Shown: piece by piece, positions 1 through 33,794 of the stretch | How positions within the stretch are numbered: position 1 is the stretch's first letter | Layout of the letters: each line of letters begins with the position of its first letter | Source of the DNA: Dactylosporangium siamense | GTDB taxonomy: Bacteria > Actinomycetota > Actinomycetes > Mycobacteriales > Micromonosporaceae | NCBI RefSeq assembly: GCF_016862795.1 | Contig: NZ_BONQ01000206.1 | Span: forward strand, 1-34,748 | Direction of reading: 5' to 3' | Length of the DNA: 34,748 nucleotides | Translations under genes and position numbers: made by a program | The notes under the pieces: model-generated | What the model was told of the DNA's origin: nothing | Seen by the model: the letters and a program-made list of their open reading frames with translations, nothing else | Databases searched by the model: none

Positions 1-1400
1 GCCGGCGGAATGTCGACAGCCGTGTCGTTCCAGCCGACGAGCTCGACCGCCTCCGCCGCCGTCAGCACGCCCAGGTCCGACAGGCGACGGCCCGCGTCCC
101 CGGCCACGCCGGACAGCAACTCCATGAAGTGGCCGACCAGGCGCTGGATCGTCGCGTGGTCGAACAGCGCCGTCGCGTATTCGAAGCCGCCGGCCACGCG
201 GCCGTCGGCGTGCTCGATCAGGGTGAGGGCGAGGTCGAAGCGCACGACGCCGCCGGGGAGCTCGACCAGATCGCCGCTGTCCGCGCCCCAGCCCTCGCCC
301 TCGTCGCGTGGGTCGCGGGCGATGTAGTTGAACAGGACCTGGAACAGCGGGGTGCGGAACCGGTCGCGGGGTATCCCCAGTTCGTCGACGAGCCGCTCGA
401 ACGGCAGGTCCTGGTGCCCGTAGGCGTCCAGGGCCGTGCGCCGGACCCGGCCGAGCAGCTCGCCGAAGGTCGGGTCACCGGACAGGTCGGTGCGCAGGAC
501 GAGGGTGTTGACGAAGAACCCGACCAGGTCCTCGGTCTCGGCGCGGTTGCGGTTCGCGATCGGGGTGCCGACGACGACGTCGTCCTGTCCGGCGTAGCGG
601 CCCAGCAGGACGCAGAACGCGGCGTACAGCTTCATGAACATCGACGCGCCCTGGCGGGCGGCGACGACCTCGAGCGCGGCGACCAGGGGCCGGGGGATCT
701 CGAACTCGACGTTGGCGCCGTCCGAGGAGCGCTGCGCGGTGCGTGGCCGGTCGGTCGGGAAGTCGAGGGTCGGCGCCGCGGCGAGCTGCCGCTGCCAGTG
801 GTCCAGCTGCACGGCCAGCACGTCGCCGGTGAGCCAGTGGCGCTGCCAGACGGCGAAGTCGGCGTACTGCACGCGCAACGGCGACAGCGGCGCCGCCTCG
901 CCGCGCCGGAAGGCCTCGTAGCAGGCGCCCAGCTCGCGCCGGAGGATGCCGGTCGACCATTCGTCGGCGACGACGTGGTGGACGACGATGCTGAGCACGT
1001 GGCTGTCGGGTGCGGTGCGCAGCAGGCGGGCCCGCAGCAGGGGACCGGCGGCGAGGTCGAACGGCACTGTCGCGTCGGCCATGACGGCCGCGCGCAGCGC
1101 CGCCTCCGGGTCGGGTTCGCCGGACAGGTCGACCACGGGCAGGTCGCAGCCGCGGGCCGGGTCGATGATCTGATACGCCACCCCGTCCACCGCCACCAGG
1201 CGGGTCCGCAGCACCTCGTGCCGCTCGAGAACGGCGTCGAGGGCGGCCCGGAGCGCGGCCACGTCGAGCTCGCCGCGCAGGCGGATCGGCAGCGGGATGG
1301 CGTATTCCGGCGAGCCGGGCTCCAACTGGTCGAGGAACCACAGCCGCTGCTGGGCGAACGACAGCGGCATCCTCGCCTCGCGCGCCACCGGCTCGATCGC
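1..1400 (-). other. NRPS2 module 4: condensation domain only
   Basis: The C domain starts [20 protein letters not shown] near 1375-1310 and carries HHVVADEWS (HH at 975-980), then [21 protein letters not shown] near 515-570. Its end and the linker WNDTA lie within the last 50 bases of the window. The A and PCP domains of this module are not visible, so its substrate cannot be read. Confidence 0.85.
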
Positions 1401-4400
1401 CGGCACCGGCGCGCCGGGCGCCGTCCCGTCCACCATGGCCGCCAGCCCGCGGATGGTCGGTTGGGCGAACAGCGCGGCGACGGGCAGCTCGACCGCGAAC
1501 GCCTGCCGGATCCGGGAGATCACCTGGGTGGCGAGCAGCGAGTGCCCGCCGAGTTGGAAGAAGTCGTCGGTCGCGCCGACCCGCTCGACCCCGAGCAGCC
1601 CGGCCCACACCGCGGCCAGCTGGACCTCGACCGGCCCGTGCGGCGCCTCGAACCCCGAGGCGAGGTCGGGTCGCGCCGCGTCGGGCTCGGGCAACGCCGC
1701 CCGGTCGACCTTCCCGTTGGGGCTCAGCGGGATCGCGTCCAGCGCCACGAACGTCGACGGGATCATGTAGTCGGACAGGGTGGCGCGCAGGAACGTGCGC
1801 AACGCGCCCTGGTCCGGCAGCGCCGAGCTGCCCGCGATGTAGGCCACCAGCCGCCGGTCGCTGCCCTCGCCCTTGGCCACGACGACCGCGCCGGTGATCT
1901 CCGGATGCGTCAGCAGCACGGCCTCGATCTCGCCCGGCTCGATCCGCACACCGCGGACCTTCACCTGCAGGTCGACGCGGCCCTGGTACTCGATCTGCCC
2001 GTCCGTCCGCCATCGCGCCCGGTCCCCGGTCCGATACGCCCGCGCCCCGCCCGGCCCGTACAGGTCCGCGACGAACCGCTCCGCGGTCAGCTCCGGCCGG
2101 CCGACATACCCCCGCCCGACACCGACCCCACCGACGTAGACCTCGCCGAACACTCCGACCGGCACCGGCCGCAACCCACGATCGAGGATCAGCAGCCGGA
2201 CATTGCCGATCGGCCGCCCGATCGGCGGCGGCCCCACCAGCGTTGCGCCGCGCTCGATCTCCGTCGACGAGGACTCGATCGACGCCTCCGTCGGCCCGTA
2301 CAGGTTCCCGATCGTCGTCGTGTCGTTGCGCGCGTAGAACCGGGCCACGTCCTCGGCCGCCAGGGCCTCACCACTGCAGAACAGCAGCCGCAGGTCGGGC
2401 AGGGCCGGCAGCAACGGATTCGCGACCAGGAGCCGGAACAGCGACGGCACGAACTGCACCACACTGATCCGCTCGCTGACCAGCAGGCCCAGCAACCGAT
2501 CCAGATCACGGTGGCTCCCCGGCTCGGCCACGACCAGCTCCGCACCCGCCGCCAACGGCCAGAACAACTCCCACACCGAGGCGTCGAACGTCAGCGGCGC
2601 CTTGTGCATGACCCGATCCGACCCGGTGAGCCGATACTTCTCCTGCATCCGCACCAGCCGGTTGACCACGCCCCGGTGCCCGACCAGCACGCCCTTCGGT
2701 CGGCCTGTCGACCCTGACGTGTAGATGACGTAGGCCAACTGATCGGGGTGGGTCACCCCGCCGACGGGCGCCGCGTCGACGTCCTCATCGACATCGACAT
2801 CGACGATGGTGGCCACGACGTCGGTGAACGGCGCCGCCGTCGCCTGCGTGCCGATCACCACCGACGCGCCGCTGTCCGTCGCCATGTACCGCAGCCGGTC
2901 CACGGGATAGTCGGGGTCCAGCGGTAGGTAGGCCCCGCCGGCCTTCCAGATGCCCAGCAGGGCCGCGACCATCGTGATGCTGCGCTCAAGGGCGATGCCG
3001 ACGACGACGTCGGGACCGACGCCGGCCCGGCGGAGGCGGGCGGCCAGCCGTTCGGCCGCCGCGTCCAGCTCGGCATACGTCAACGCCACCGGGCCGCAGC
3101 GCACCGCGACCGCATCCGGGGTCCGGGCGGCCTGCGCCTCGAACAGCTCGTGCACGCCGTGCTGCTCGGCGATCGGCGCGTCGGTGGCGTTCCATTCCTG
3201 CACGACCAGGCGACGCTCGGCCTCGTCGAACACGGGACAGTCCGACACCCGCGCCTGCGGATCCGCGCCGAGCGCGTCGAGCACGACGAGCAGGTGCCGG
3301 ACCATCCGCCGGACCGTGTCGTCGTCGAACAGCGCGGTGCTGTACTCGAACAGCCCGACCAGGCCGCCGCCGGCGGTCTCACCCAGGGCCAGGGACAGGT
3401 CGAACTTGTTCACCGCCGGCACCGGCCCCGCGTCGACGTCCTGGACGTCCTCGCCGTCGGTGAAGTAGTGGAACAGCACCTGGAACAACGGCGTGCGGGA
3501 CAGGTCCCGGTCCGTGCCCAGCTCGTCGACGAGCTGCTCGAACGGCACATCCTGATGCGAGTACGCCGCCAACGCGTTCGCCCTGACCCGCTCCAGCACC
3601 TCCTCGAACGTCGGATCCCCGGACAGGTCCGTGCGCAGCACCAGCATGTTGACGAAGAACCCGACCAGATCCTCGGTCTCCACCCGGTTGCGACCCGCGA
3701 TCGGCGAACCGACCACGACGTCGTCCTGACCGCTGTACCGGCCGAGCAGGACCGTGAACGCACCGAACAGGGTCATGAACATGGTCGTGCCGCAACGCCG
3801 CGACAGCTCCCGCAGCCGGTCGGCCGTCGCGCCCGGCACGGCGAAGCGCAGCAGCGCCCCGTCCGTGGACCGCACGGCCGGCCGCGGCCGATCCGTCGGC
3901 AGCTCCAGCAACGGCGCCCCGGCCAGCTCGCCCCGCCAGAACGCCAACTGCCGCTCCAGCACGTCCCCGGTCAGCCACTGCCGGTGCCAGGCGGCGTAGT
4001 CCGCGTACTGCACCGCCAACGGTGGCAGCACCTCGCCCGCATACAGCGCCAGCAGCTCGCGGCGCAGGATGGTCGCCGACCCCTCGTCACACACCACGTG
4101 ATGTACGCACAGCCACAACAGCTGCTCGCCCGGCCCGAGCCGGTACACCCGGGCGCGCAGCAGCGGGCCGTTCGCCAGGTCGAACGGCGCCATACGCTCC
4201 TCGAGCAGGCTCCGTTCCAGCGCTGCACCGCGCACGTCGACGACCGGCAGGTCGACCTCGGTCGGTGGGTCGATGACCTGATACGGCACCCCGTCGGCAT
4301 CCGCGACCAGCCGGGTGCGCAGCACCTCGTGCCGCGCCACCAACGCGGTCAACGCCACCCGCAACCGCGCCGGGTCAAGGTCGCCGGGCAGCGGGATCGG

Positions 4401-7400
4401 CAACGGCACGTTGTATTCGGCCGAGCCGGGCTGCAACTGGTCGAGGAACCACAGCCGCTGCTGACCGGACGACAGCGGCAACCGCCGATCCCGGCCGACC
4501 GGCACGATCGACCCGGTCAACGCGCCGGCGCCGGCGTCCGCATCCGTGACCGCGGCCGCCAGCCCCGCCACCGTCGGCCGGTCGAACAACGCCGCCAACG
4601 GCAGGTCGACACCCAACGCCGTCCGGACCCGCGACACCACCTGCGTCGCCAGCAGGGAATGCCCACCCAGCGCGAAGAAGTCGTCGTGCGCGCCGACCCG
4701 GGCCGCGCCGAGCACGTGCGCCCAGATCCCGGCCAGGATCTCCTCCACCGGGGTGGCCGGGGCGACGTACGCCTCGCCGAGCCGGATCCGCTGACCGTCC
4801 GGGTCGGGCAACGCCGCCAGGTCGACCTTGCCGTTGGGCGTCAACGGCAGCCGCGGCAGCGACACGAAGACCGCCGGCACGAGGAACGCCGGCAGCCGCT
4901 GAGCCAGGAACTGCCGCAGCACGGTGACCGGCGGGGCCCCGGCCTCGACGTCAGCGGGCACGACATAGGCCACGAGCCGCTGCTGCGCACCGTCGGCGGC
5001 CACGACGGCGGCCGCCACCCCCTCGTGCGCCGTCAGCGCGGCCTCGACCTCGCCGGGCTCGATGCGGAAGCCGCGGACCTTCACCTGCCGGTCAAGGCGG
5101 CCCAGGAACTCCAGCTGGCCGTGCGCGCCCCAGCGGACGCGGTCGCCGGTGCGGTACAACCGCGATCCGTCGCTCGTGAACGGGTCCGCGACGAAACGCT
5201 GCGCCGTCAGCTCGGGCCGACGCACATAGCCGCGGGCCACCGCGGCGCCGCCGATGTACAGCTCGCCGGCCACCCCGACCGGGACCGGGCGCAGCCACCG
5301 GTCGAGGACGGTCACCCGGGCCCCGGGCAGCGGCCGGCCGATGGGCACGGGGCCGGTGCCGGACACGTCCGCAGGGTCGCCGGACGTGGAGTCGATGGTG
5401 GCCTCGCTGACGCCATAGCCGGTCAGCACCCGCACGTCGGGCCCGAGGACCTGTCGCGCCCGGGCCGCGGCCGGCAGCCGCCACACGTCGGTGGTGACGA
5501 TCAGCAGCCGCAGCCCCGGCAGGGCCTGCCCGGTGCGGCGGACGTGCTCGACGAGCTCGTCGGCGTAGCGCGGCGCGCACTCCAGGGCGCCGATGTGCTC
5601 GTCGCGCAGGACCGCCGCCCAGCGTTCGGTGCTGACCTGCAGACCCACGTCGCCGAGCACCAGCGTCCCGCCGGAGCACAGCGCGCGGACGAGGTCGCCG
5701 ATGAACACGTCGAAGCTGGCGCTGGCGACGGACAGCCAGCGGTGCCGGTCGTCGGGCCCGAAGTGGACGGCCCGCCATCCGGCGAGGACGCCGCCCAGGC
5801 TGGCGTGCGTGACGGCGACGCCCTTGGGCCGGCCGGTCGAGCCGGACGTGTAGATCACGCACGCGAGCGAGCCGGCGGCGACCCGGGCCGCCACGGGTTG
5901 CCCGTCCGTCGCCGGGTGCGGCTCGTCGACGCGCAGCACCGGGACGGCCCAGTCGGCGACGGCGGCCGTGTGCTCGTCGGCGAGGACCAGCACGGCGCCG
6001 CTGTCGTCGGCCATGAAGTCGAGCCGCTCGACCGGGTACTCCGGGTCGAGCGGCAGGAAGGCGCCGCCGGCCCGCCAGGCGGCCAGGACGGCGACCACCA
6101 GGTCCACCCCCCGGCCGAGGCACACGCCGACCACCGACTCGGCGGTGACGCCGGCCGCCCGCAGCCGGCCCGCCAGCCGGCCGGCCCGCGCATCCAGTTC
6201 GCCGTAGGTGAGCTCGGCGCCGCCGGCGCGCACCGCAACGGCGTCCGGGGTCGTGGCGGCCCGCTCGGCGATCAGCTCGTGCATCGTGGTTTCCGCGGGA
6301 ACGACCGGCCGGCCGGTCCCCCAGTCGCGCACGAGGCGGTCCTGTTCGTCCGGGGACGCGACGGGCAGTTCGGAGAGGCGCCGGTCCGCCCCGACGGCCA
6401 TCGCCTCCAGGAGGTTCACGAGGTGGGCGGCGAGCCGTTCGACGCCGGCGGCTTCGAAGATGTCGGTGCTGAACTCGAGCCGGCCGGCGAGGCCGCCGTC
6501 GGCGAGCTCGACGAGACTCAGGGTGAGGTCGAACAGGGCGGTGCCGCGCGCGACGCGTTCCGGCGTGGCCCGCAGGTCGCCCAGCGCCGGGGCGGTGTCG
6601 AGCCGGCCGTAGTCGAACATGGCCTGGAACAGCGGGGACCGGGACCGGTCGCGCTCGCCGACGAGCGCGTCCACGAGCCGTTCGAAGGGCACGTCCTGGT
6701 GGGAGTGGGCGGCGAGCGTGTCGGCACGGACCCGGCCGAGCAGCTCGGCCACGGTCGGGTCGCCCGACAGATCGGTGCGCAGCACCAGGGTGTTGACGAA
6801 GAACCCGATGAGTCCCTCGGTCTCGAGCCGGTTTCGGTTGGCGACCGGGGTACCGATGAGGACGTCGTCCTGGTCGGCGTGCCGGCCGAGGACGGCGGCG
6901 AACGCGCCCAGCAGGGTCATGAACATGGTGGCGCCCTGCGCGCGGGCCAGGGCGCGCAGCCGCTGCGCGAGGTCCGGCGGAACGGTGACGTCCACCGATG
7001 CGCCGCGGCCGGACCGCACGGGCGGGCGGGGGCGGTCCTCGGGGAGCTCGAGGGCGGGCGGGGCGGCCAGCCGCTGCCGCCAGTAGGCGAGCTGAGCGTC
7101 GAGCACCCCGGTGGCGGCCCACTCACGTTGCCAGATCGCGAAGTCGGCGTACTGGACGGGCAGCGGCGCGAGCCGGGCCCGGTCGCCGGTGCGGGCGGCC
7201 TCGTACAGCTCGGAGGCCTCCCGCAGCAGGATGCCGGCCGACCACTGGTCCGCGACGGCGTGGTGGAGGATCAGGCTGAGGATGTGGTCGTCGGCCGCGA
7301 CCTGGTAGAGCCGGAACCGGTACAGCGGGCCGGCCGCCAGGTCGAACGGGGTGGCCGCGTCGGCGGCGACGAGCTCCCGGGCCGCCGGCAGCGGTTCGTC

Positions 7401-10400
7401 GCGGTCGGTCACGTCGACGTGCCGCAGGGCCCCGCCGGGCGCCGGGTCGACCGCCTGGTAAGCGCTGCCGGCCCCGTCGGAGACGAGGCGGGTGCGCAGT
7501 GCCTCGTGCCGCGCCACGACCGCGTCGAGGGCCGCGGCCAGCGCGGCGGGGTCGAGCGTCCCGGCGAGGCGCCACACGACGGTGACGTTGTATTCGGCCG
7601 AGCCCGGCTCGAGCTGGTCGAGGAACCACAGCCGCTGCTGGCCGAAGGAGAGCGGTGGGCGAGGGCCGCGCTCGGCGCCGACGACCGGGGCCGCGGCGGT
7701 GCCGGGCAGGGCCGCGTCGACGACGCCGGCGAGGGCCCGGACGGTGGGCTGGGCGAACAGCGCGGCGAAGGGCAGCTCGGTGCCGAACGTCGCCCGGATC
7801 CGCGAGGCGACCTGGGTGACCAGCAGCGAGTGGCCGCCGAGCTCGAAGAAGTCGTCGTCGGCGCCGACCCGCTCCTGGCCGAGCACTTCGGCGAAGATGC
7901 CGGCGAGCAGCTCCTGCGTGACGCCGGAGAGGCCGGCGACCGGCCGATCGGGTGCGGCATCGGGGTCGGGAAGGGCACCCCGGTCGATCTTGCCGTTGGT
8001 GTTCAGGGGCAGGGCGGCGAGTTCGACGTACACCGCCGGCACCAGATGCTCAGGGAGCCGTTCCCGCAGCCGTTCCCGCAGCTGCCCGGCCGCCGGGATG
8101 CCCGCCGCCGCGTCGGCCGGGACCAGGTAGGCCACCAGCCGCTCCTGGCGGGCGGCCACGACCGCCGCGGCGATCTCGGGCAGCTCGGTCAGCGCGGCCT
8201 CGACCTCGCCGGGCTCGACCCGGAAGCCGCGGACCTTCACCTGGTGGTCGATGCGGCCGAGGAACTCCAGCTGGCCGTCGGGCCGCCACCGCGCCCGGTC
8301 GCCCGTGGCGTACCACCGGGACCCGTCGCCCGCCACCGCGTCGGCGACGAAGCGCTGCGCCGTCAGGTCTGGCCGGCCGCCGTACCCCCGCGCGAGACCG
8401 ACCCCGGCGAGCCACAGCTCGCCAACCACGCCCACCGGCACGGGCCGCAGCGAGCCGTCCAGCACGTGGACGCGCGTGTTCGAGATCGGCGCCCCGATCG
8501 GGATCGCGGTTGCGTCGCCGGGCCGCGGGCACGTCCAGGCGGTCACGTCGATCGACGCCTCGGTCGGCCCGTACAGGTTCTCCACGACCGCCGTCGGGTG
8601 CCGGGCGTAGAACCGGGCGACATCGGCGCCGGCCAACGCCTCACCGCTGCACACCACCAGCCGCAGGTCGGCCATCGGGGCCGCCCACTCGGGCCCGACG
8701 AACCGGGCGAACAGCGACGGGACGAAGTGCACGACGCCGACGCGTTCCCGATCGATCAGGTCGACGAGGTACTCGACGTCCCCGTGCCGGCCCGGCTCGG
8801 CCATCACCACCGTCGCGCCGACCGTCAGCGCCCACACCAGCTCCCACACCGACACGTCGAACGTGATCGGCGTCTTGTGCAGCACCCGCTCGCCCGGCCG
8901 CAGCCCGTACGCGCGCTGCATCCACCAGATCCGGTTCTGCAGCCCCGCGTGCCCGACCTGCACGCCCTTCGGCCGGCCCGTCGAACCCGACGTGTAGATC
9001 ACGTACGCCAGCCCGTCGGCCGGGACCGGCACCTCGGGTGGCCGCACGTCACACCCCGCCAGCCCGGCGGCCGTGGCCGGGTCGTCCACGCCGACCCACG
9101 CCCCCGGCTGCCAGCCGCCGGGGCCCGTGCCGACGACCGCGGCCGCGCCCGCGTCGCTCGCCATCAGACCCAGACGCTCCGGCGGGTATCCCGGATCCAG
9201 CGGCAGATAGGCGCCGCCCGCCCGCCACACGCCGAGCACCACCGGCAGCAGGTCCAGCCCGCGTTCGAGGCACACCCCGACCACCGACTCGACGCCGACG
9301 CCCAGCCCGCGCAGGTGCCACGCCCACCGGTTCGCCCGCTCGTCCAGCTCCCGGTACGTCAGGCTCGCCGTCCCCGACATCACCGCCACCGCGTCCGGGT
9401 GCCGCTGCGCCACCGCCCCCATCTGGTCCACGACCCGGCCGATCGCGGGGACCGCCGCAGCCGTGTCGTTCCAGCTGGCGATGAGCTCCAGTTCGGCGGC
9501 GGGGAAGAGCTCGGCGACCGGCCGGTCCGGCCCGGCCAGGAACGCCTCGAGGACGGCGACCAGGTGGCCGGCCAGCCGCCGGAGGGCGGGGCCGGGGTAG
9601 ACGGCGCGGTCGTAGGCGATGCGCACCCCGAGCTGCGGGCCGGGCGACACCATGACCGTCAGCGGGTGGTTGTCCCGCTCGCTGACCGGGCCCTGGGTCA
9701 TCCGCAGCGCCGGCTCGCCGTCGGGCTCGCCGGCCGGGAAGTTCTCGAAGACGAACAGGGTCGTGAACATCGGCTGCCCGGCCGGGATCTCGCCGCACGC
9801 CTGGATCCGCACCAGCGAGGTGTGCTCGAAGGCCCGGGCGGCCGCCTGCTCGGCCTGCACCCGGCGCAGCCAGGAACCGGCCGGCTCGGCGCCGTCGACC
9901 CGCACGCGGGCGGGCGTGGTGTTGATCAGCATGCCGACCATGGACTCGATGCCCTCGAGCTGGTCGCCGCGGCCGGAGGTCGTCACGCCGAAGAGCACGT
10001 CGTCGACGCCGGCGTAGGCGGACATCAGCGCGGCCCAGGCACCGAGCACGACGGTGTTGATGGTGAGGCGCTCGGCGCGGGCGAGGCGGGCAAGGCCGGC
10101 GGTCGCCCCGGCGGACAGCCGGACCCGGTGCTCGCCGGTGCCCTCCTCGCCGGTGTCGCCCTCGATCTGCAGCGAGGTGGCCGACGTGAAGCCACGCAGC
10201 CGCCCGGCCCAGTAGGCCTCGGCCCGGGCCGGGTCCTGCGCGGCGAGCCAGGAGACATGGTCGCGGAACGGGCGGCGCGGGGCGAGGGCAGGTTCGCGGC
10301 CGGCGACCAGCGACTCGTAGGCGGCGCCGACATCGGCCAGGACGATGGGCACGCTCCACCCGTCGAGGAGCAGGTGGTGGTAGCTCCACAGCAGGCGGTG

Positions 10401-10805
10401 CCGCCGCTGCCCGAGCCGGATCAGGGTGAGCCGCACAAGGGCGGAGCCGTCGAAGTCGGGGCCGCGGCGGCGATCCTGCTCCACCAGTCCGGCGAAGGCG
10501 TCGTCCTGCTCGGCCTGGGTCCTCGCGGTCCAGTCGAGCACCTCGATCGGCACGGGGACCGACCGGAAGACGACGCTCAGCGGCGCCGGGACGCCCTCCC
10601 AGATGACGCCGCTGCGCAGCACCGCGTGCCGCTCGAACACCAGCTCCCAGGCCCGCGTGAACGCCGCCAGGTCGAGGTCGCCGTCCAGCTCCTGGCAGTT
10701 CTGGATCCAGTACACACCGGAGCCGGGCGCCATGCGGGTGTGCACCAGCATGCCTTGCTGCAGCGGCGTCAGCGGGTAGATGTCCTCGATGGCACGGGCG
10801 TTCAC
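1..10805 (-). CDS. Non-ribosomal peptide synthetase NRPS2 (partial, 3' end beyond left edge)
   Basis: Multimodular NRPS read continuously for about 3,601 codons to the left edge. Domain order seen: C-A-PCP, C-A-PCP, C-A-PCP, C. The start is GTG at 10805, preceded by GGAGG at 10811-10815; the protein then reads [20 protein letters not shown], a C-domain C1 motif of the kind that follows an E domain. In-frame landmarks: C-domain HH pairs at residues about 142-143, 1180, 2234 and 3275; phosphopantetheine-site serines in GGHS at about 993, 2050 and 3089; A-domain [11 protein letters not shown] cores at about 602, 1651 and 2694. No E, methylation or oxidase domain is seen. It probably acts in the cytoplasm, taking the peptide from an NRPS ending in E. 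A 43-codon E-domain remnant ends two bases before its start. The adenylation domain of module 4 and everything after it lie outside the window. Confidence 0.95.
1430..4500 (-). other. NRPS2 module 3: C-A (Gln-like, tentative)-PCP
   Basis: The C domain begins [12 protein letters not shown] and its catalytic motif is HHVVCDEGS (HH at 4098-4103), with Cys before the Asp and Gly in place of Trp; the second His and the Asp are intact. The A core is at about 2694-2728. Pocket residues are D-A-W (FDASVW), Q (VQFVPS), F and S (LFCSGE), L, I, E (SIE): DAWQFSLIE. This resembles the Gln-type code DAWQFGLIDK but differs at two positions, so an unusual Gln/Glu analogue is possible. It is nearly the same code as NRPS1 module 1. 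PCP serine codon at 1539-1541. Confidence 0.65.
4520..7680 (-). other. NRPS2 module 2: C-A (Orn-like, tentative)-PCP
   Basis: C domain motif HHAVADQWS (HH at 7260-7265). The A core is at about 5821-5855. The A domain is atypical: the usual NxYGPTE motif reads GYGVSE, and the region around position 301 reads VTTDVW instead of xxGGE. Hand-read pocket residues are D-V-G (FDVFIG), E (LECAP), I, T, G, I, D. The nearest code I recall is ornithine DVGEIGSIDK; a basic residue is plausible but not secure. PCP serine codon at 4656-4658 in the motif ALGGHS. Confidence 0.65.
7690..10805 (-). other. NRPS2 module 1: C (D-donor type)-A (Ser)-PCP
   Basis: The C domain has the active-site motif HHLLLDGWS (HH at 10374-10379) and the N-terminal signature [13 protein letters not shown], both typical of DCL domains that accept a chain from an E-domain NRPS. 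The A domain core motif lies near 8963-8998. Pocket residues read by alignment to GrsA are D-V-W (FDVSVW), H (VHFVPS), V and S (VVCSGE), L (NLYGPTE), I and D (SID), i.e. DVWHVSLID plus the usual Lys. This is close to the published serine code DVWHLSLIDK. PCP serine codon at 7827-7829. Confidence 0.8.
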
Positions 10806-10806
10806 G

Positions 10807-10938
10807 TCATCCTCCGAAGCGCGCATCGAGGCGCTGCCGGGCCGGGCCGATGGCGGCCCGATCCAGCCCGGTCAGCGGGGAGTCGGCGGGGGTGGGAGTG
10901 CTGCCGGCGGTGGGCGTGCAGCGTTGGTCGATCAGTTC
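10807..10938 (-). pseudogene. Remnant of an NRPS epimerisation-domain C-terminus (43 codons)
   Basis: The frame runs from ELIDQRC to LDARFGG and stop. It matches the last 42 residues of NRPS1, which run from ELIEHCC to LGARFDG and stop. Both contain AG, PL.GLD.AA and QRL.ARF.G in order, with only a one-codon indel, so the reading frame has been kept. The rest of the E domain and the NRPS it belonged to are absent: homology stops at 10938 and a leader sequence begins. The stop codon (10807-10809) overlaps the region between the ribosome-binding site and the GTG of NRPS2, as expected for the end of an NRPS gene that directly preceded NRPS2. It could still be translated within a longer frame starting near 11130, but no intact catalytic domain remains. 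Confidence 0.8.
10811..10815 (-). promoter_or_regulatory. Ribosome-binding site deciding the NRPS2 GTG start
   Basis: GGAGG on the minus strand, five bases before GTG at 10805. The nearer ATG at 10810-10808 is followed by ACG TGA and cannot be the NRPS2 start. The site overlaps the last codons of the E-domain remnant, so the two would be translationally coupled if the remnant is translated. Confidence 0.75.
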
Positions 10939-10941
10939 GAA

Positions 10942-11125
10942 TCTCCCGGTGTCATGTGTTTCATCGCGGGCCCGGCAGCCGTGCGGATGATCGCCACAAT
11001 ATTCAGCCCGGGCCGCAGTTTGTAAGTGCACGTTGGCGGCACTCTCGGGCGACCCCATGAGCACTCCACCCTGGCTCCAGCCGGACTCGAAATGCATCCG
11101 GAGCAGCCCGAAGAATGCGTTGAAC
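10942..11125 (-). repeat. Leader/promoter copy B, upstream of the remnant and NRPS2
   Basis: Diverged copy of the sequence upstream of the ABC exporter (copy A, 33404-33625). Shared blocks, read on the plus strand, are gtcatgt at 10951, tcagcccgg at 11003, ggctccagccg at 11073 and gaatgcgtt at 11113. Their spacings (52 and 70 for the first three) match copy A (50 and 69). The last block is about 46 bp closer than in copy A. The lower GC content of this stretch suggests a non-coding promoter/5' leader, probably giving NRPS2 its own transcription. Confidence 0.75.
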
Positions 11126-12006: not shown

Positions 12007-12050
12007 CAATCCCTCGCTCTCGTGGTGGCGAACGGTGCGGCCGCGCCGGA

Positions 12051-16976: not shown

Positions 16977-17698
16977 CGTGCCGGCTCGCCGGTGAGCAGG
17001 GAGTCCGGCCCCGAGCGCGCGGAGGTGCGGTCGACCACCCGGCCGTCGCGGATGAACACCACCCGGTCCGCCCACGAGGCGAGCTGGGCGTCGTGGGTCA
17101 CCACGACCGCGGCCAGCCCGCGCTTGCAGGTGGCCAGGATCATGCGCATCACCGCCTCGCCGTTGGCCGAGTCGAGGGCGCCGGTGGGCTCGTCGGCCAG
17201 CAGCAGCCGGCGGTCGCCGACCACGGCCCGGGCGATCGCGACCCGCTGACGCTCGCCGCCGGAGAGCTGGTCCGGGAAGCGGGTCGCCCGCTCGGCCAGG
17301 CCCAGCTCCTCCAGTCCCCGCAGCCCCGCGGCGCGCGCCTTGCCGGCCGAGACCCCGTCCAGCTCCAGCGGCATCGCCACGTTTTCGACCGCGGTCAGCC
17401 CGGGCAGGAGATTGTAGTTCTGGAACACGTATCCGATCGCGCGCCGGCGCAGCCGGCTGCGGTCGTCACGCGACATCGAGGAGAGCGACTGACCGGCCAC
17501 GATCACCTCGCCGGCGGTCGGCGTCTCGAGCGCGCCGGCGATGGTCAGCAGCGTGCTCTTGCCCGAGCCGCTGGGCCCCATCACCGCCACCAGCTTCCCG
17601 GGCTCGACGACCAGGTCCACCTCGCGCAGCGCATACACCTCGTCCGCGCCGTCCAGGTAGGTCTTCGACACTCCACGCAGCTCCAGGACCCCGCTCAT
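16973..17698 (-). CDS. ABC transporter ATPase 2 (MacB/LolD-like)
   Basis: 241 residues: Walker A GPSGSGKST at 41-49, Q-loop FQNYNLL, signature LSGGE, Walker B LLLADEP, switch His in THDAQLASW. ATG at 17698 overlaps the PadR 2 stop as ATGA, and its own stop overlaps the permease start as ATGA, so the three genes are translationally coupled. It would energise the permease at 14502-16976. ATPase 1 is its close paralogue with nearly identical motifs and the same length. Confidence 0.95.
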   Translation of the reverse strand: MSGVLELRGVSKTYLDGADEVYALREVDLVVEPGKLVAVMGPSGSGKSTLLTIAGALETPTAGEVIVAGQSLSSMSRDDRSRLRRRAIGYVFQNYNLLPGLTAVENVAMPLELDGVSAGKARAAGLRGLEELGLAERATRFPDQLSGGERQRVAIARAVVGDRRLLLADEPTGALDSANGEAVMRMILATCKRGLAAVVVTHDAQLASWADRVVFIRDGRVVDRTSARSGPDSLLTGEPAR

Positions 17699-18279
17699 CG
17701 ACGCACCCCCGCCCGGCGGCGGATCAGCGGAGCGGCCGGCGCCTTGGCCGGTGGTGGCGGCTCCAGGCCGGCCCGCTTGAGCCGGCCGTCGGCACTGTCG
17801 AGCCACTGCACGACCGCATCGAGGCGGTAGAGCTCCGCGTCGACCGCCAGGGCGAGTCCAAGGTCCACGTCGGCCTCCTCTTCCTTGAGTCGGGTCCACT
17901 GCTGCATCAGCTCGACCAGGTAGCGCCGGTGCGCCTGGATGACTTCGTGCACGTCGACGCCCGGCAGCCGGATCGCGACCAGCACCTTGATGACCAGTTC
18001 GTCGCGCGGGGGCGAGCCCAGGTCGGGCGGCGTGCGCAGCCAGCCCGCGAGCTCCTCGGCCCCGTCGGCGGTGATCCGGAAGTCCTTCTGCGGCCCGAGG
18101 TCGGCGTCGTCGTCGGACTCGACCAGCCCGTCGCGCTCCAGCCGCTGGAGGGTGGTGTAGACCTGACCGACGTTGAGCGGCCACACCTCGCCGGTCCGCG
18201 CCTCGAACTCCTCACGCAGCTGAAGGCCGTACTTGGGGCCCTCGCTGAGCAGCGCCAGCAGCGCATGGCGGATGCTCAC
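17695..18279 (-). CDS. PadR-family transcriptional repressor 2
   Basis: 194 residues, aligned with PadR 1 along most of its length (EGPKYGLQLREEFEARTGE.WPLNVGQVYTTLQRLERDG). The N-terminal winged helix binds DNA and the C-terminal helices dimerise. GTG at 18279 is the only start that keeps this alignment; the ATG at 18290 leads to an immediate stop. Two operator-like sites sit 10 and 30 bp upstream, so strong autorepression of this PadR-ATPase-permease operon is expected. The inducing ligand may be the cluster's peptide, which is inference. Confidence 0.94.
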   Translation of the reverse strand: MSIRHALLALLSEGPKYGLQLREEFEARTGEVWPLNVGQVYTTLQRLERDGLVESDDDADLGPQKDFRITADGAEELAGWLRTPPDLGSPPRDELVIKVLVAIRLPGVDVHEVIQAHRRYLVELMQQWTRLKEEEADVDLGLALAVDAELYRLDAVVQWLDSADGRLKRAGLEPPPPAKAPAAPLIRRRAGVRR

Positions 18280-18308: not shown

Positions 18309-18336
18309 CATGCCCAGTATGATACTACGTATACAG
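18309..18336. promoter_or_regulatory. PadR-type operator S2 upstream of PadR 2
   Basis: Second 28-bp site, starting CATGCCCAGTATGATAC, with a central ATAC-TAC-GTAT dyad. On the minus strand it contains TATCAT, a candidate -10 box, 30 bp upstream of PadR 2. The rest of the 157-bp gap to NRPS1 (18337-18436) shows a TTGACA at 18371-18366 but no matched -10 and no clear terminator for NRPS1. Confidence 0.7.
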
Positions 18337-18436
18337 ACGGCCGTCGAGCATGCCGGTGGCGCGCTTGTCAAGATTCGCCCGCGCCTTCTCGCTCCCCGCG
18401 CACAAGCGATCCGGCACGGGGCCGCCGGGCGTCGGG

Positions 18437-19850
18437 TCAGCCGTCGAAGCGCGCGCCGAGGCGCTGCTGGATCATGTCGAGGGCGGCCTGGTCCAGTCCC
18501 GCGAGCGGGAAGTCGCCGGGCACCGGCCCGCCGGCGGCCGGCGCGCAGCAGTGCTCGATCAGCTCGTCCAGGACCTCGGTGTACCGCCGGGCGAGCCGCT
18601 CGATCGTCTCCGGCCGGTGGACGCGGTCGCAGTAGGTCCACGTGAGCCCCAGCCGCCCGTCGACGACCCGGCAGTCGAGCTCGACCAGGTGCCCGCGCGG
18701 GCCCGAGGGCGCCCGGTCGGGGCCGAGCGAGTCCGGCAGCGCCCGGAAGCGCGGCGTGCCGTCGTGGCCGGCGTCGGCCTGGCCGAGGTAGTTCAGGGCA
18801 ACCTCGGCGCCCGGTCGGACGCCGAGCGCGGAGGTCGCCAGATGACGCAGCACACCGTGGCTGAGCCCGCGGCGCGGCAGCGCGCGCATCCGTTCCTTGG
18901 TATGCCGCAGCTGCGCACCGAGGTCGCCGTCGCCGACGTGCAGCGGCACCGGGAACAGGGTGGTGAACCAGCCGACTGTGCGGGAGACGTCGTAGCCCGA
19001 TCCGACGTCCTCGCGGCCGTGGCCCTCGAGGTCGACGGTGACCGCCGGGTCGCCGGTCCACTCGGCGACCGCCAGCGCGAGCGGCGTCAGCAGGACCTCG
19101 GTGACGTGCGTGCCGTACGCCGCCGGCACGGTCTGCAGCAGCCGCCGCGTCTGCTCGGCGGGCAGCAGCTGCTGGAAGGTCCGGGCGTGCGCGAGGTCGT
19201 TGCGCCCGTCGGGATGGTCGCGTGGCAGCGGCACCGGCGCGTCGGCGTCGAGCCAGTAGCCGGCCTCGGCCCCGATCTCGCGGCCGAGCTCCACGAGGCG
19301 GTGCGCCCACCGGCGCAGCGACGTCGTCTTGGCCGGCAGCCTGATCGCCGAGCCGCGGGCGGCCTGCTCGTAGGCGGTGTGCAGGTCCTCGATGAGGATG
19401 GGCCACGACACGTGGTCGACGGCGAGGTGGTGCACGACGAGCAGCAGGCTCTGCCCGGCCGGCCCGTCGTCGAACAGGACCGCCCGCAGCAGCGGGCCGG
19501 CGGCGAGGTCGAGCCCGCCGTGTGCCTGCGCGGCGGCCTCGGCCAGGCGGGCCCGCCGGCGCGGCTCGTCGAGCCCGGTCAGGTCGACCTCGGCGAGCAC
19601 CGGCGGGGTCGCCGCGGCCGGGTCCGCGCATTCGAGCCGGTGCCCGCCGGCGGGCGAGGCGGTGAGGCGCAGCCGCAGGGCGTCGTGGTGCCCGGCCAGT
19701 GCGGCGAGGGCCTCGCGCAAGGGGCCGGCGGCGGCCGGGCGCAGCACCTGCAGCAGCCGCGACTGGTTGTAGTGCGACGGCCGCGGCAGCTGCCGGTCGA
19801 CGAAGTCGTGGATGATCGGCGTCAGCGGCAGCTCGCCGGTCACGGGTCCC
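18437..19850 (-). other. NRPS1 epimerisation domain and docking tail
   Basis: Begins [18 protein letters not shown]. The catalytic motif is [10 protein letters not shown] (HH at 19427-19432), and later motifs include [22 protein letters not shown] and ALNYLGQ, all E-domain marks. It would convert the Ser-bearing chain end to D. The last residues ([21 protein letters not shown] region, 18437-18500) look like a short C-terminal communication helix for the next NRPS. Confidence 0.88.
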
Positions 19851-22800
19851 TGCTCGGCGTCGACCGGCCCGGGCGCCGTGCCGGCCGCGGCGGCCAGCTC
19901 GGCCACCGTCTGGTGCTCGAACAGCTGCCCGGCCGACAGGAACAGCCCGGCCCGGCGGGCCCGCGCCACGACCTGGATGCCGATGATCGAGTCGCCGCCG
20001 AGCTCGAAGAAGTTGTCGGTCACGCCGACGCGCTCGACGCCGAGCAGCTCGGCCCAGATCTCGGCGAGGGCCGCCTCCCGGACGTCGCCCGGGGCGACGA
20101 ACGCCTGCTCGGGCCGGGCCGGCGCCGGGTCGGGCAGCGCCTTGCGGTCGACCTTGCCGCTGGAGGTCAGCGGCAGCGCCGTCAGCTCCACGAACACGCT
20201 CGGGATGAGATAGTCCGGCAGCCGCTCCCGCAGCCGCTCCCGGGCCCGCGCCGCCGACGGCACCACGTAGGCCACCAACCGGTCCCGGTGTGCCACCACC
20301 ACCGCCGCCGTGATCTCCGGCAGCGCGGTCAGTGCCGCCTCGACCTCGCCCGGCTCGACCCGGAACCCGCGCACCTTCACCTGGTGGTCGGCCCGGCCCA
20401 GGAACAGCACCTGACCGTCGCCGCGCCACGCCGCCACGTCCCCGGTCCGATACCGGCGGCCGCCGCCCGCGGCCGCCACGAAGCGCTCCGCCGTCAGCTC
20501 CGGCCGGCCGTGGTAGCCCCGCGCCAGTCCCACGCCGCCGAGATACAGCTCGCCCGACACCCCGACCGGCGCCGGCCGCAGGGCCGGGTCCAGCACCTGC
20601 ACCTGCGTGTTCGCGATCGGCGCCCCGATCGGCACCACCCCGCCGGCGTCCGGCCGCGGGCACACCCACGACGTCACGTCGATCGACGCCTCCGTCGGCC
20701 CGTAGAGGTTCGCCACCACCGCCGACGGGTGCCGCGCGGAGAACCGCGCCACATCACCGCCCGACAGTGCCTCGCCCGAACAGACCACCAGCCGCAGTCC
20801 GGCCATCCCCGACGCCCACTCGGCGCCCACGAACCGCGCGAACAGCGACGGCACGAAGTGCACCACCGCGACGCGCTCGCGCTCGATCACATCGACCAGA
20901 TACTCGACGTCCCCCTGCCGGCCCGGCTCCGCCATCACCACCACCGCACCGACCGCCGGCGCCCACACCAGCTCCCACACCGACACGTCAAAGGTGATCG
21001 GCGTCTTGTGCAGCACCCGCTCGCCCGGTGCCAGGCCGAACTCCCGCTGCATCCACCAGACCCGGTTGGCCAGGCCGTCGTGCGTCGACAGCACCGCCTT
21101 CGGCCGGCCCGTCGACCCCGACGTGTAGATCAGATACGCCAGCCGCCCCGGTCGGAACGCCGGCGCCGGCACCCGCAGGGTCTGCGTCTGCGCCGCGCGC
21201 ACCCCGTCGGCGTCGAGCACCAGCACGGCGCCGCTGTCCGCGACCAGCTCCGCCCGCCGCGCCGCCGGATACCCCGGGTCCAGCGGCAGATACGCCGCGC
21301 CCGCCTTCCACACGCCCCACACCGCCACCGCCAGCTCCACGCTGCGGTCCAGGCACACCCCCACGACCGACTCCGGGCCCACGCCCGACGCCGCCAGGAA
21401 CCCGGCCAGCGCGTCCGAGCGCTGGTCGAGCTCGCGGTAGGACAGCCACTCCCCGCCCGACACCACCGCCGGGGCGTCCGGGGTCGCGGCCACCGCGGCC
21501 GCGAAGGCGCCCAGGACGCCGCCCGTCCACGGCACCGCCGCGGCCGTGTCGTTCCAGCGGGCCAGCTCGGCCGGTGCGAGCGGCGGGAGCAGCGACAGCG
21601 GGGTGCCGGGCGCGGACGCGAGCTCGGTGAGCACCGCGACGAGATCGTGGGCCAGGCGCTCGACCGTCGCGTGGTCGAAGAGGTCCTTGCTGTACTCCAG
21701 GGTCGCGACCATGCCCTGCGCGCCGATCTCGGCCCGCGTGAAGAGGGTGAGATCGAACTTGGCCGTCGTGTGTGGCAGCCGCAGCTCCTCCTCGGCCAGC
21801 GCGCCGCCGAAGGTGCGACCGCCGCCGTCGGCGACGCCGAGGTGGTTGAAGTACACCTGGAACAGTGGCGTGCGGCTGCGATCGCGCTGCGGCTGCAGGG
21901 CGTCGACGAGCTGCTCGAACGGCAGGTCCTGGTGCGCGTACGTGCCGAGTGCGCTGTCGCGGGCACGGCGCAGCACCTCGGTGAAGGCCGGGTCGCCGGA
22001 CAGGTCGACGCGCAGCACGAGCGTGTCGAGGAAGTGCCCGATGAGGTTCTCGGTCTCGGTCCGGGTCCGCCCGGCGATGGGGCTGCCGACCACGACGTCG
22101 TCGGTGCCGGCGTAGCGGCCGAGCAGCACGGAGAAGCCGGCCAGCAGCACCATGAACATCGTGGCGCCCTCGTCCCGGCCGAGCCGGGTCAGGCGGTCCA
22201 TCACCGGGCGCGGCACGACGACGTCGACGAGGCCGCCGGCCGAGGAGCGCACCGGCGGGCGGGGCCGGTCGGCCGGCAGCTCGAGGGTGCTCAGGCCGGC
22301 CAGCCGGTCGCGCCAGTAGCCGAGCTGCCGGTCGAGCTCCCCGCCGAGCAGCCAGTCGCGCTGCCAGACGGCGTAGTCGGCGTACTGCACGGGCAGGTCC
22401 GGCAGGCGCGGTTCGCGGTTGTCGCGCGCGGCGCTGTACAGCTCGGACAGCTCGCGACGCAGCACGCCGGCGGACCATTCGTCCATGACGGCGTGGTGCA
22501 TGACGACGCACAGGACGTGGTCGTCCGGGGCGAGGCGGATGAGCCGGGTGCGGATGAGCCGGTCGGCGCCGAGGTCGAACGGCGTGGCGGCGTCGCCGGC
22601 GGCGACGGCGAGGGCCCGCGCGAGCCCCGCCGGGTCGCCGGTCAGGTCCGTCACGACCCAGTGCGGCTCGCCGGGCGGGTCGATGTGCTGGTGCGCGACG
22701 CCGTCGACGGTGACCAGGCGGGTCCGCAGCACCTCGTGCCGGGCCACGAGCGCGGCCACGGCCCGCCGCAGCGCGCCGGCGTCGAGCTCGCCGCGCAGGC

Positions 22801-25800
22801 GCAGCGCCGTCGGCACGTTGTAGTCGGCCGAGCCGGGCTCCAGCTGGGCCAGGAACCACAGCCGCTGCTGGGCGTAGGACAGCGGCAGCGGCGCGGCGCG
22901 ATCCACCGGGACGATGGGCGGCGCGGCCCCGTCCCGCTCGCCGGCGCCGGCCAGGACGGTGTCGATCGCCGCGGCGCAGGCGCGCAGGGTGCGATGGTCG
23001 AACAGCACGGCGAGGGGTAGCTCGGCGCCGGTGGCCTCGCGCAGGCGCGACACCGCTTTGGTGGCGACGAGCGAGTGGCCGCCGAGCTCGAAGAAGTTGT
23101 CGTCGGCGCCGATCGGGCCGACGCCGAGCACGTCGGCCCAGATGCCGGCGAGCAGCTCCTCGGTCGGGGTCGCGGGCGGGACGTGGCGGTCGGCGGCGCG
23201 CTCGACGCCGGGCTCGGGCAGCGCCGCGCGGTCGATCTTGCCGCTGGCCGACAGGGGCAGCGCGGCGAGCTCCATGAAGACGGTGGGGATCAGGTGCTCG
23301 GGCAGCCGGCCGGCGAGGAACTCGCGCAGGGCCGCGCCGGTCGGGATCCCGTCGGCGGCCTCGGCCGGGACGGCGTAGGCGATGAGGCGCCGCTCGTCGC
23401 CGGCCCGGTCGGCGGTGACGATCGCGGCCGCGACGGCCGGGTGCGCGGCGATGGCCGACTCGACCTCGGCCGGCTCGATCCGGAAGCCTCTGACCTTGAG
23501 CTGGCGGTCGGCGCGACCGACGAACTCGAGCTCGCCGTCGGCGCGCCAGCGCACGAGGTCGCCGGTGCGGTACAGGCGGGAGCCGTCGGCGGCGAAGGGG
23601 TCGGCGACGAACCGCTCGGCGCTCAGTCCGGGCCGGCGCAGGTAGCCGCGGGCGACGCCGTCGCCGGCGACGTAGAGCTCGCCGGTCACGCCGACGGGCA
23701 CGGGCCGCAGGGCCTGGCCGAGGACGTAGGCGCGGGTGTTGACGATCGGCCGGCCGATCGGCGGGGCACCATCCGCGCCGGCGTCGCACACTCCGATGGA
23801 GGCGCAGACTGTGGTCTCGGTCGGGCCGTAGGCGTTGAGCAGCCGCACGCGGCCGGCCCAGTCGCGCGCGAGGCCGGCGCCGATCGCCTCGCCGGCCACG
23901 ACGAGCGTCGCCACGCCGTCCAGAGCGGCCGGGGCGAGGGTGGCGAGCAGCGACGGCGGCAGGGTCAGCACCGTGACGCCGCTCGAGCGCACCAGGCGCC
24001 CGAGGGCCGCGGTGTCGGCGCGCTCGTCCGGGCCGGCGACGACGAGCCGCGCGCCGGCGGCGAGCGTCACCGCGATCTCCGAGACGGCGGCGTCGAATCC
24101 GAGGGCGGCGAACTGCAGCACCGTCGCGTCCTGATCCACGCCGAAGACCGGGGCCTGGCCCAGGATGAGGTTGGTGACGCCGCGGTGGCTCACCGCGACG
24201 CCCTTGGGGCGGCCGGTCGAGCCCGAGGTGTAGATGACGTAGGCGAGCTGGTCCGGGTGCGGCGGTGCCGGCGCCGGCGGCTCGGGCGCGGCCTCGATCG
24301 CCGCCGCCGTCGACGGGGAGTCGAGGGCGATGAGGCGGGTGCGGCCGCCGGGCAGGTGCTCCAGCGCGGACTTCGAGCCCACCACGACCGAGGCCCGGCT
24401 GTCGGTGAGCATGAACGCGAGGCGCTCCACCGGATATTCGGGGTCCAGCGGCAGGAACGCCCCGCCGGTCCGCCACACCGCGAGGATGGCGACCACCGGG
24501 TCGAGGCCGCGTTCGGCGCACAGGCCGACGACGGTCTCGGGGCCGACGCCGAGCGTGCGCAGGTAGGCGGCGAGCCGGGCGGCGCGGCGGTCCAGCTCGG
24601 CGTAGGTGAGTGCGGCGGGGCCGGCGACGACGGCGACCGCGTCGGGGTGGGTGCGGGCCCGGGCGGCGACGAGCGCGGGGACGGCGGCGGGGCCGGCCGG
24701 CGCGGCGGTGTCGTTCCAGTCGCACACCACCTGCCGCCACTGTGCGGGCGGCAGCGACGGGAGCTCCGAGAGCCTCTGGTCGGGGGCGGCGCAGATGGTG
24801 CCGAGGATCAGCGCGAGATGCTCCGCCAGTCGTTCGACGGTGGCGTGGTCGAAGACGTCGGTGCGGTACAGCAGGCTGCCGCTGATGCCGTCGGCGCCCT
24901 CGGCGAGCGCGACGGTCAGGTCGGAGCGGGCCTCGTCGGTGCCGAGCGGGAACGGCTCGCCGGCGAGGCCGGGGAACGTGAAGCGCGCCTCGCCGGCGCC
25001 GCCGCCGACCCGGTCGACGCCGAACATCACCTGGAACAGCGGCGCGACCGACCGGTCGCGCGCGGTCTCCAGCACGTCGACGAGCTGCTCGAACGGCACG
25101 TCCTGGTGCGCGTATCCGGCGAGGGCCTCGCGCCGGACGCGGCCGACGAGCTCGGCGAACGTGGGATCGCCGGACAGGTCGGTGCGCAGCACGAGGGAGT
25201 TGACGAAGAACCCGACGAGTCCCTCGGTCTCGGTGTGGTTGCGGTTGGCGATGGGCGTGCCGACCACGACGTCGTCCTGGCCGCAGTGGCGCGACAGCAC
25301 GACGGTGAACGCGGCGAGCAACGTCATGAACATCGTGGCGCCGCTGCGGCGGGCCACCGACCGCAGGCCGTCGGCGACCGCTGCGGGCACCGCGAACTCG
25401 GCCGCGGCGGCGCTCGAGGAGCGCACCGGGGGCCGCGGCCGGTCCAGCGGCAGCTCGAGCATGGGCGCGCCGGCCAGCCGGTCACGCCAGAACGCGATCT
25501 GCTCCTCGACGACGGCGCCGCGCAGCCAGGAGCGCTGCCAGGCGGCGAAGTCGGCGTACTGCACGGCCAACGGCGCCAGGGCGGGCGACCGGCCGGCGCG
25601 GGAAGCCTCGTAGACGGCGCCGAGCTCGTGGCGCAGGATCAGCGCCGACCACTCGTCGGAGACCACGTGGTGCAGGTAGAGGCAGAACACGTGGTCGTCG
25701 GCGCCGAGCCGGACCAGCCGGGCCCGCACGAGCGGGCCGCGGGCTAGGTCGTACGGGCGCCCGGCGTCCGCCGCGAGGAGGTCCCGGGCCGCGCGCGGCG

Positions 25801-31503: not shown

Positions 31504-33399
31504 CTACAGCGGGTTGGTCGACATCTGGACCGGCTCGTCGGCGATGCCGTCGCCGATCACGGCCTCGACGTCTTCGTCGTCCAGGAAGCCCGACGCCTGG
31601 ATCGAGAACAGCTCGGCGTAGAGGCCGCCGGCGGCCATCAGCGAGGCGTGGTTGCCTTGCTCCACGATCCGGCCCTGCTCCAGCACGACGATGTGGTCGG
31701 CCGTGCGCACCGTCGAGAAGCGGTGCGAGATGAGCAGGACCGTGCGGTTGCGGTAGAGCTCGCGCACGCTGTCGAACAGCGCCCGCTCGGCCCGCGCGTC
31801 GAGCGCGGCGCTCGGCTCGTCGAGCACCACGACCGGCGCCGAGCGGAAGAACGCGCGGGCGAGCGCGACCCGCTGCCACTGGCCGAGCGACAGGTCCTGA
31901 CCGTCGCCGAACTGGGGCGACAGCATGGTGTCGTAGCCCTCCGGCAGGGCGGAGAGGAAGCCGTCGGCGCCGGCCGCCCGGGCCGCCTGGTGGATGTCGT
32001 CGGGGCCGGGCTCGCGCTCGACCGCGCCCAGCCGGATGTTGTCGGCGGCCGGCATGGCGTACTTGATGAAGTCCTGGAACAGCACGGCGACCGAGTTGCG
32101 CCACGCCTCCGTGTCGATGTCGCGCAGGTCGACCCCGTCGACCCGCACGGCGCCGGTCTGCGGCGTGTAGAGCCCGGCGAGCAGCTTCGCCAGCGTCGTC
32201 TTGCCCGACCCGTTCTCGCCGACGAGCGCTACCACCTGGCCGGCCTCGATCCGCAGCGAGACGTCCCGCACGGCCGGGCGTTCGGCGTCCTGGTAGGTGA
32301 AGCCCAGGCCGTCGAGCTCGATGCGCGAGAACTGGGCCGGCGCCGGGACGCCGTCGTGCCGGCCGCGCAGCTTGGGCCCGAGCGCCAGGAACTCGTCGAG
32401 GTCGGCGATGAGGGGCGCGGACTCGAAGAAGGCGTTGGTGGCCGAGATGGCCTCCATCAGCTTCTGGCTGAGCACGAGCAGGATGCCGGCGAGTGTCGCG
32501 GTCTGCGCCAGCGACAGCACGTGGTAGTGGGTGAGCAGGATGAGCCCGCCGGCGACCAGCGCGATGACGGCGTTGCTGCCCAGCGAGGAGATCATCGACG
32601 AGCGCAGCCGGCGGCGCAGCATCGCGCCGAGCAGCCGCAGCCGCTCGTTCATGGAGTCGCGCCAGGTCGTCGCGAGGTGGTCGGCGAGGTTGTACGCCCG
32701 GACCTCCTTCGCCGGATCGCGCGTGGTCAGCAGGACGTAGAGGTAGCTGCGGCCCCGGTCCGAGCTGGTGGTCTCCTTGACGAATTCGTAGTACTGCTCG
32801 CCGCCGCGGGTGCCGCCGATCCACACCGGGAAGATCACGGCCAGCACACACACCGCGATCACCGGCTGGATGGTGGACAGCGCGATCCACAGCGAAATCA
32901 CGGTGAAGAGCGCCTGCATGACCAGCGTCAGCGACGACACCATCTGGATCGGACGGTGCTGCGCACTGGCCGACGCGCGCTGCAGCCGGTCGTGGAAGCG
33001 GGAGTTGTCGAAGTCGTCGAGCTCCGCCTGGGAAACGACCCCGATCACCTCGCCGCACGCGTAGATGCTGGTCCGTTCGCCGAGCATCGTGCGCCGGTTG
33101 GCGATCACCGCCTCGGCCAGCACGATGACGATGTTGGCGGATATGAAGATGATCAGATTGCTGGCCAGTGCGGGGGCGCTGGCGCCGTTGTCGGAGCCGA
33201 TCAGGCTGGACAGCACCTTCTGGACCTGGATCACCAGCACGAAGATGCCGACGGCCTGCAGCACGTCCATCGCCACGACGATCAGGAACTCGCGGCGCGA
33301 GGCCCGCCACACGAGTCTGATCGCGGCGGCGACGGCGCGCATCATGCCGCGGAAGCCCCGAATTCGGGGGCCGGGAACGCTGGTCGGTCGCTCTGTCAC
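31504..33399 (-). CDS. ABC exporter half-transporter (membrane plus ATPase domains)
   Basis: 631 residues. The N-terminal membrane domain (about 20-330) has several hydrophobic segments, e.g. [20 protein letters not shown] and [19 protein letters not shown]. The C-terminal ATPase has Walker [10 protein letters not shown] near 392-400, signature [14 protein letters not shown] near 500, Walker [13 protein letters not shown] near 525 and H-loop LLISHRFST near 556. It probably works as a homodimer exporting the finished peptide; transporters of this type sit next to NRPS genes in many actinomycete peptide clusters. GTG at 33399 has GGAGG at 33404-33408. A 95-codon upstream frame ends on this start (GTGA overlap) but is probably non-coding. 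The stop is 23 bp from NRPS1, so the two form one operon. Confidence 0.94.
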
Positions 33400-33403
33400 G
33401 TTG

Positions 33404-33741: not shown

Positions 33742-33753
33742 ATGCAATTGCAT
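33742..33753. repeat. 12-bp perfect palindrome ATGCAATTGCAT
   Basis: Perfect self-complementary sequence touching the left end of operator S3. It is a possible second regulator site. A small 6-7 bp hairpin (CCTGACG at 33719-33725 with CGTCAGG at 33728-33734) lies beside it. Nothing else is recognised between 33679 and 33741. Confidence 0.4.
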
Positions 33754-33778: not shown

Positions 33779-33794
33779 CCGTCTGGTCCATGGC

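Follow-up and report, generated by a model that had tools for sequence, protein, structure and literature searches.

Organization of the NRPS locus

The short stretch in front of one NRPS gene of this locus (NRPS2) begins like the leader of a distant ABC exporter gene and ends like the 3' end of a second NRPS gene (NRPS1), which raises the question of how these two pieces came to be joined there. The window, i.e., the whole stretch of 34,748 bases that was analysed, is one entire contig (C206) of a 12.7 Mb genome in 296 contigs, and both of its ends break within NRPS genes. All genes concerned sit on the minus strand, and the main ones are listed here:

34748-33795, minus strand: NRPS 3' end with thioesterase
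31504..33399, minus strand: ABC exporter, 631 aa (Pfam ABC_tran, 4.3e-31; translation)
18437..31480, minus strand: NRPS1, 4347 aa (translation; motifs and by-eye domain reading)
17695..18279, minus strand: PadR-family regulator (Pfam PadR, 1.1e-17)
11176-12839, minus strand: two tandem sulfotransferase genes
1..10805, minus strand: NRPS2, with its GTG start at 10805; it begins with a C domain and runs off the contig

From motifs and by eye, not from Pfam, NRPS1 was read as an incomplete C region at the N terminus, followed by four A-T modules and closed by an E domain (three of the four A domains were recovered in the motif scan, and the fourth was read only by eye). By eye, its N terminus (31480-31000, minus strand) appears to hold just the latter part of a C domain, and the start of N180, a paralogue on another contig, is similar. 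The NRPS1 frame is open across the entire exporter gene (18437-33448, minus strand; 5003 codons), which is probably an effect of high GC. Judging by their ends, the E-ending NRPS1 and the C-starting NRPS2 look like successive subunits. Their genes are separated by 7.6 kb holding six genes, which encode the PadR regulator, an ABC protein, an FtsX protein, a further ABC protein, and the two sulfotransferases. With regard to the sulfotransferase pair, tandem relatives were observed in three examined genomes (G320, G334, and G331), and an exporter match at 1e-25 was absent from the stretches fetched around them.

A divergent copy of the exporter leader in front of NRPS2

The two leaders and the likely ribosome-binding site of the exporter are located as follows:

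33400..33559, minus strand: leader A, 5' of the ABC exporter; homologous to leader B
10942..11098, minus strand: leader B, 5' of NRPS2; divergent copy of leader A
33404..33408, minus strand: GGAGG, likely Shine-Dalgarno sequence of the exporter (GTG at 33399), read by eye

A preliminary description of this DNA had claimed that the exporter leader is duplicated 5' of NRPS2 as four blocks, and for the first three of these blocks the claim holds. Local alignment of 33650-33400 with 11175-10939 (minus strand) gave a score of 78, which is better than any of 2000 dinucleotide-preserving shuffle pairs (mean 24.1, s.d. 3.8, maximum 43). The fourth block (33616/11113) was dropped from the repeat as a chance match, its score of 20 being equalled by 416 of 2000 shuffles. 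In the MAFFT alignment of the leaders (167 columns, 156 of them ungapped), 98 of the 156 positions were identical. Searching the window by blastn with one copy recovered the other over 174 columns at 62% (E about 5e-9), and this match extends into the first exporter codons. By eye, the leaders end in purine-rich sequence as had been described, with GGAGG in leader A and GGGAGA (10947-10942) in leader B; no ATG, GTG, or TTG follows immediately after the latter (by eye).

Mismatches between the leaders were unclustered (p values of 0.30 by window variance, 0.14 by runs, and 0.27 by the longest run), and most of the gap lengths were not multiples of three, as expected for drifting sequence. The unclustered identities speak for common descent with even decay and against a set of short conserved sites. 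Upstream of leader A, an inverted repeat (33632-33678) was observed between the thioesterase end and the leader, on the leader side of the PadR-type box described below; no terminator-like T run was scored there.

An NRPS1-like E-domain tail joined to leader B

Between leader B and NRPS2 lies a short coding piece, given here with its paralogue and the ribosome-binding site that it contains:

10807..10939, minus strand: E-domain tail remnant, the last 43 codons and stop of an NRPS1-like gene
18437..18566, minus strand: NRPS1 3' end, comprising the E-domain tail with its stop codon; paralogous to the remnant
10811..10815, minus strand: GGAGG in the last (Gly) codons of the remnant, likely Shine-Dalgarno sequence of NRPS2

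Homology to the NRPS1 3' end starts at 10939, a few bases past the GGGAGA of leader B, in agreement with the earlier claim that an E-domain remnant begins where leader B ends. Bases 1-132 of the remnant align with the NRPS1 end through the stop codon (96 of 129 aligned bases, score 119, one 3-base gap), and 25 of 43 aligned residues are identical (43 vs. 42 residues). The two also share the subunit end QRLxARFxG followed by a stop. Weaker matches to the remnant occur inside the NRPS1 coding sequence (E of 4e-5 and 3e-4).

When the whole genome was searched with the leader B region, the NRPS1 end was found at E 9.1e-15 and the next match at an E of at least 0.014 (40 of 165 candidates scored). 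Because that search may miss relatives, the remnant was directly compared with six E-domain ends (genome matches at E up to 1e-30). The five tails other than that of NRPS1 scored 73 (83/122 bases) and 69 (82/109 bases) for the two E domains on contig C111, and 57, 47, and 35 for the three on contig C155, where the last match (L105) stops short of its tail. By identity alone, the second C111 tail equals NRPS1 in its closeness to the remnant, though its alignment contains more gaps. The E domains on C111 and C155 are internal to proteins of 9778 and 7745 codons, in which a C domain or further sequence follows them, and among the E-domain matches in the assembly (E up to 1e-30) that of NRPS1 was the only one seen at the end of a subunit. 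Given the top score among the six tails and the same subunit end as in NRPS1, we conclude from these sequence comparisons that the remnant derives from an E domain that resembled the one of NRPS1 and closed a subunit.

The remnant stop codon (10809-10807) lies beside the NRPS2 GTG, directly after the GGAGG; the current end of NRPS1 (TTCGACGGCTGA) has no GGAGG-type site. The remnant frame is open to 11130, with start codons at 11130, 11097, 11064, 11058, and 11031. Since these in-frame starts fall in or just above leader B, we think that translation of the remnant does not begin at a start codon of its own. The GC content at third codon positions of the remnant is 36/43, compared with 95% in NRPS2; a value this low was reached in just one window out of 81 in NRPS2 and one out of 98 in NRPS1. 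This suggests a decaying gene end, an argument that is weakened by the fact that the Shine-Dalgarno sequence itself, as GGA GGA, accounts for two of the seven codons ending in A or T (by eye). Differences between the remnant and the NRPS1 tail number 9, 10, and 14 of 43 at the three codon positions, a bias too weak to indicate selection.

The junction itself and the other gene boundaries were also compared. No vestige of exporter coding sequence beyond chance was detected in the remnant (score equalled or exceeded by 604 of 1000 shuffles), nor any trace of an NRPS2 start in the NRPS1 3' flank (917 of 1000). By eye, the first exporter codons of A match the E tail at 11/14 positions in register, and this candidate microhomology was rejected, as a gapped local test was not significant. 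In an all-against-all comparison of ten gap and flank stretches (45 pairs), four pairs besides the leader pair and the PadR-type box exceeded a z of 2.5. The strongest of these four, the gap before the first sulfotransferase against the E tail, was set aside, as on repetition 11 of 2000 shuffles reached the score, which is about the expectation for 45 tests.

A probable relic of a deleted exporter-NRPS1 copy

The region in front of NRPS2 retains, in order and orientation, both ends of the leader-exporter-NRPS1 segment, and the 14.8 kb between them are absent. Each preserved end is closest to its parent within the genome (the next match to the leader has an E of 0.048, and the E tail scores 119 vs. 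at most 73). We consider it probable that this region is the relic of a duplicated and internally deleted exporter-NRPS1 copy that once abutted NRPS2. With both segment ends present in order and the middle missing, one duplication and one deletion would explain the leader, the E tail, and the ribosome-binding site.

The course of events that we consider most likely is as follows. A second leader-exporter-NRPS1 copy would have stood directly 5' of NRPS2, its last codons holding the ribosome-binding site of NRPS2. Such a copy could have originated within the cluster, through duplication, or could have come from a related cluster by recombination, and our data fit both. An internal deletion, amounting to 14.8 kb if the copy equalled the present segment, would then have fused the leader end to the E tail. 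At present the fused relic would have no role other than that of a 5' region for NRPS2, and the E tail may have been kept for supplying a Shine-Dalgarno sequence and a stop codon beside the GTG start. It is from the arrangement of the retained pieces that we infer the duplication, the deletion, and this present role, and the scar suggests which genes formerly preceded NRPS2.

Gene remnants are known as rearrangement scars in biosynthetic gene clusters. As in those scars, duplication and deletion would have left behind a short synthetase piece flanked by intact genes; unlike in gene-remnant scars in general, both ends of the lost segment can here still be recognised, the noncoding leader being joined to the coding tail. 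The setting also recalls NRPS pairs in which an E-terminal donor is followed by a C-starting acceptor, where communication-mediating (COM) domains are found, as in the tyrocidine synthetases. The remnant ends as NRPS1 does and NRPS2 opens with a C domain, as in such pairs, but the donor end is here a detached remnant, and the intact E-terminal NRPS1 is 7.6 kb off. Among the literature matches listed, none concerned a scar of leader and E tail. The feature looks ordinary in kind and mainly a record of cluster rearrangement, and it illustrates, down to single bases, a way in which collinearity may be lost in an NRPS operon. It may also mean that a ribosome-binding site together with an E tail needs keeping when such operons are cut and joined.

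Relatives in the genome, family, and class

A paralogue of the exporter (57% at the amino acid level) is encoded at 22614-24473 of contig C180 in the same genome, about 14 kb from the NRPS1 paralogue N180 (C180, 38254-47570). Among nine A domains compared, A domains 1-3 of N180 were the reciprocal best matches of A1-A3 of NRPS1, in the same order (75, 64, and 57%). N180 runs off its contig and its 3' end is missing. This shows that exporter and NRPS1 relatives coexist in the genome; the time and place of the copy in front of NRPS2 are not given thereby. No overlap was found among the contig ends of C206, C180, and C111 (for C111, in the first 40 of 105.6 kb), and C180 could not be linked to the window. 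The exporter search of the genome's contigs returned only three distant ABC proteins. Contig C180 also carries genes suggesting a supply of hydroxyphenylglycine, as well as a CmlA-type hydroxylase.

Exporter relatives passing 1e-130 were found in 4 of 354 family genomes, the own genome included, at 42-61% identity and none above 61%. In the class, 1 of 394 genomes passed 1e-150, and this was the own genome. An intact intermediate was found neither by the exporter and leader search of the 354 family genomes nor by the exporter search of the 394 class genomes.

The preliminary description had further proposed to look for the leader in other clusters, and neither the own genome nor the 354 family genomes yielded a convincing match. 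In the own genome, six matches had an E of up to 10, of which two were leaders A and B. The match on C152 (E 0.048) was rejected as a GC-rich chance match with no NRPS beside it, and the other three had E values of 0.9 to 8.7. In the family scan, which used stricter filters at the loss of weak matches and scored 8 candidates per genome in the rows listed, 6 of 354 genomes, the own included, gave a match at E up to 0.01, with about 3.5 expected by chance. The best of those outside the own genome (L065) was discarded, no NRPS being recognised by eye among the frame starts. The regions upstream of four exporters (C180, G336, G040, and G322) were each compared with both leaders, and none held a clear leader: in seven of these eight tests the score was reached by 70 to 202 of 500 shuffles, and leader A vs. 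the G322 upstream region was borderline (6 of 500 shuffles). The leader model had no full match at G322 at E up to 10, and it gave weak partial matches elsewhere in L057 and L058 (E 0.2 to 3.7).

PadR-type boxes, promoters, and alternative explanations

A further repeated element may bear on how the two operons came to be arranged:

33751..33781, minus strand: PadR-type box, above leader A; it overlaps with a sigma-70-like promoter (33790-33761)
18309..18339, minus strand: second copy of the PadR-type box, in front of the PadR gene

The boxes agree at 26 of 31 bases, with a score that was reached in 2 of 2000 shuffles, and their likeness is confined to these 31 bases. A degenerate pattern made from the two had no other match in the window at up to three mismatches, and none in 100 shuffles. 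We infer that the PadR regulator may control both its own operon and the exporter operon via this shared box as a putative operator. A weaker look-alike (about 14363-14390, minus strand; 8/28 mismatches) is situated between the FtsX gene and the second ABC gene.

The box, the leader, and the E tail are each repeated at changed boundaries, although the box may be an operator. Such a pattern could result from tandem duplication with reciprocal loss, in which the unit box-PadR-ABC-FtsX-ABC-two sulfotransferases-leader-exporter-NRPS1 was doubled and complementary halves were lost. This would swap the order of the two operons and leave the box, the leader, and the E tail as three scars. It is a special form of the deletion relic and compatible with it, and taken as a specific course of events we regard it as unlikely. 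The PadR box heads both halves of the proposed unit, and each gene of the unit occurs once in the window. However, the box is a palindrome-like operator at the regulator's own promoter, and regulation alone explains its repetition; a longer likeness is also lacking, as it ends at 31 bases. Tandem duplication-random loss has been described for mitochondrial genomes, with which this scenario shares the change of order, the repeated boundary scars, and the single occurrence of each gene; it differs in concerning a bacterial biosynthetic cluster, where it is here suggested only. If true, it would mean that large NRPS operons can be reordered without loss of function, both copies coexisting before they are trimmed.

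The preliminary description had left two options for the leader copy, deletion of an exporter-plus-NRPS copy and promoter capture by NRPS2. The former is better supported, as the joined ends in front of NRPS2 resemble the segment ends, and exporter and NRPS1 paralogues occur on another contig. Under the latter, a copy of the exporter leader was put before NRPS2 after NRPS1 and NRPS2 had been split, by which NRPS2 gained a promoter of its own. The leader does precede a long gene or operon at both sites, and with six genes parting NRPS2 from NRPS1 an own promoter would be useful. Both leaders have in common, by eye, a weak TATCCT/TATTGT with an upstream TTACGC/TTACAA at a spacing of 18. Against this, a scan restricted to the sigma-70-type consensus found no promoter in leader A or leader B, and none in the whole B region. 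The only sigma-70-like match near A (33790-33761) is the promoter at the PadR box, outside the copied part, and there is no PadR-box match at B. Capture would moreover require two separate duplications, one of the leader and one of the E tail. We judge it rather improbable and less likely than a relic.

The leader could instead be a cluster-specific regulatory element under selection before several operons. An 11-mer of block 1, CGGCTGGAGCC, is also present in the gap before N180 (C180:38125) as a possible shared site, and it occurs three times in the window and C180 against 0.15 expected; two of these three are, however, the defining copies, and the 11-mer is also found antisense within an NRPS on C111. 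The remaining leader fails to align upstream of N180 (495/1000 and 219/1000 shuffles reach the score), and the leader matches are not grouped into blocks. Selection on the leader would also leave the fused E tail unexplained, and we find this explanation quite doubtful. A structured RNA leader was likewise considered and rejected, with no gathering match to Rfam in the window and no unusual fold in three stretches taken from the leaders and the remnant (z of 1.00, 0.28, and -0.69, no better than shuffles).

An assembly artefact or a chance similarity seems very improbable: the window is a whole contig with both ends breaking in NRPS genes, but differences between the copies amount to 26% of the compared positions in the E tail and 37% in the leader, which is not what a collapsed repeat would give, and chance is excluded by the shuffles for blocks 1-3.
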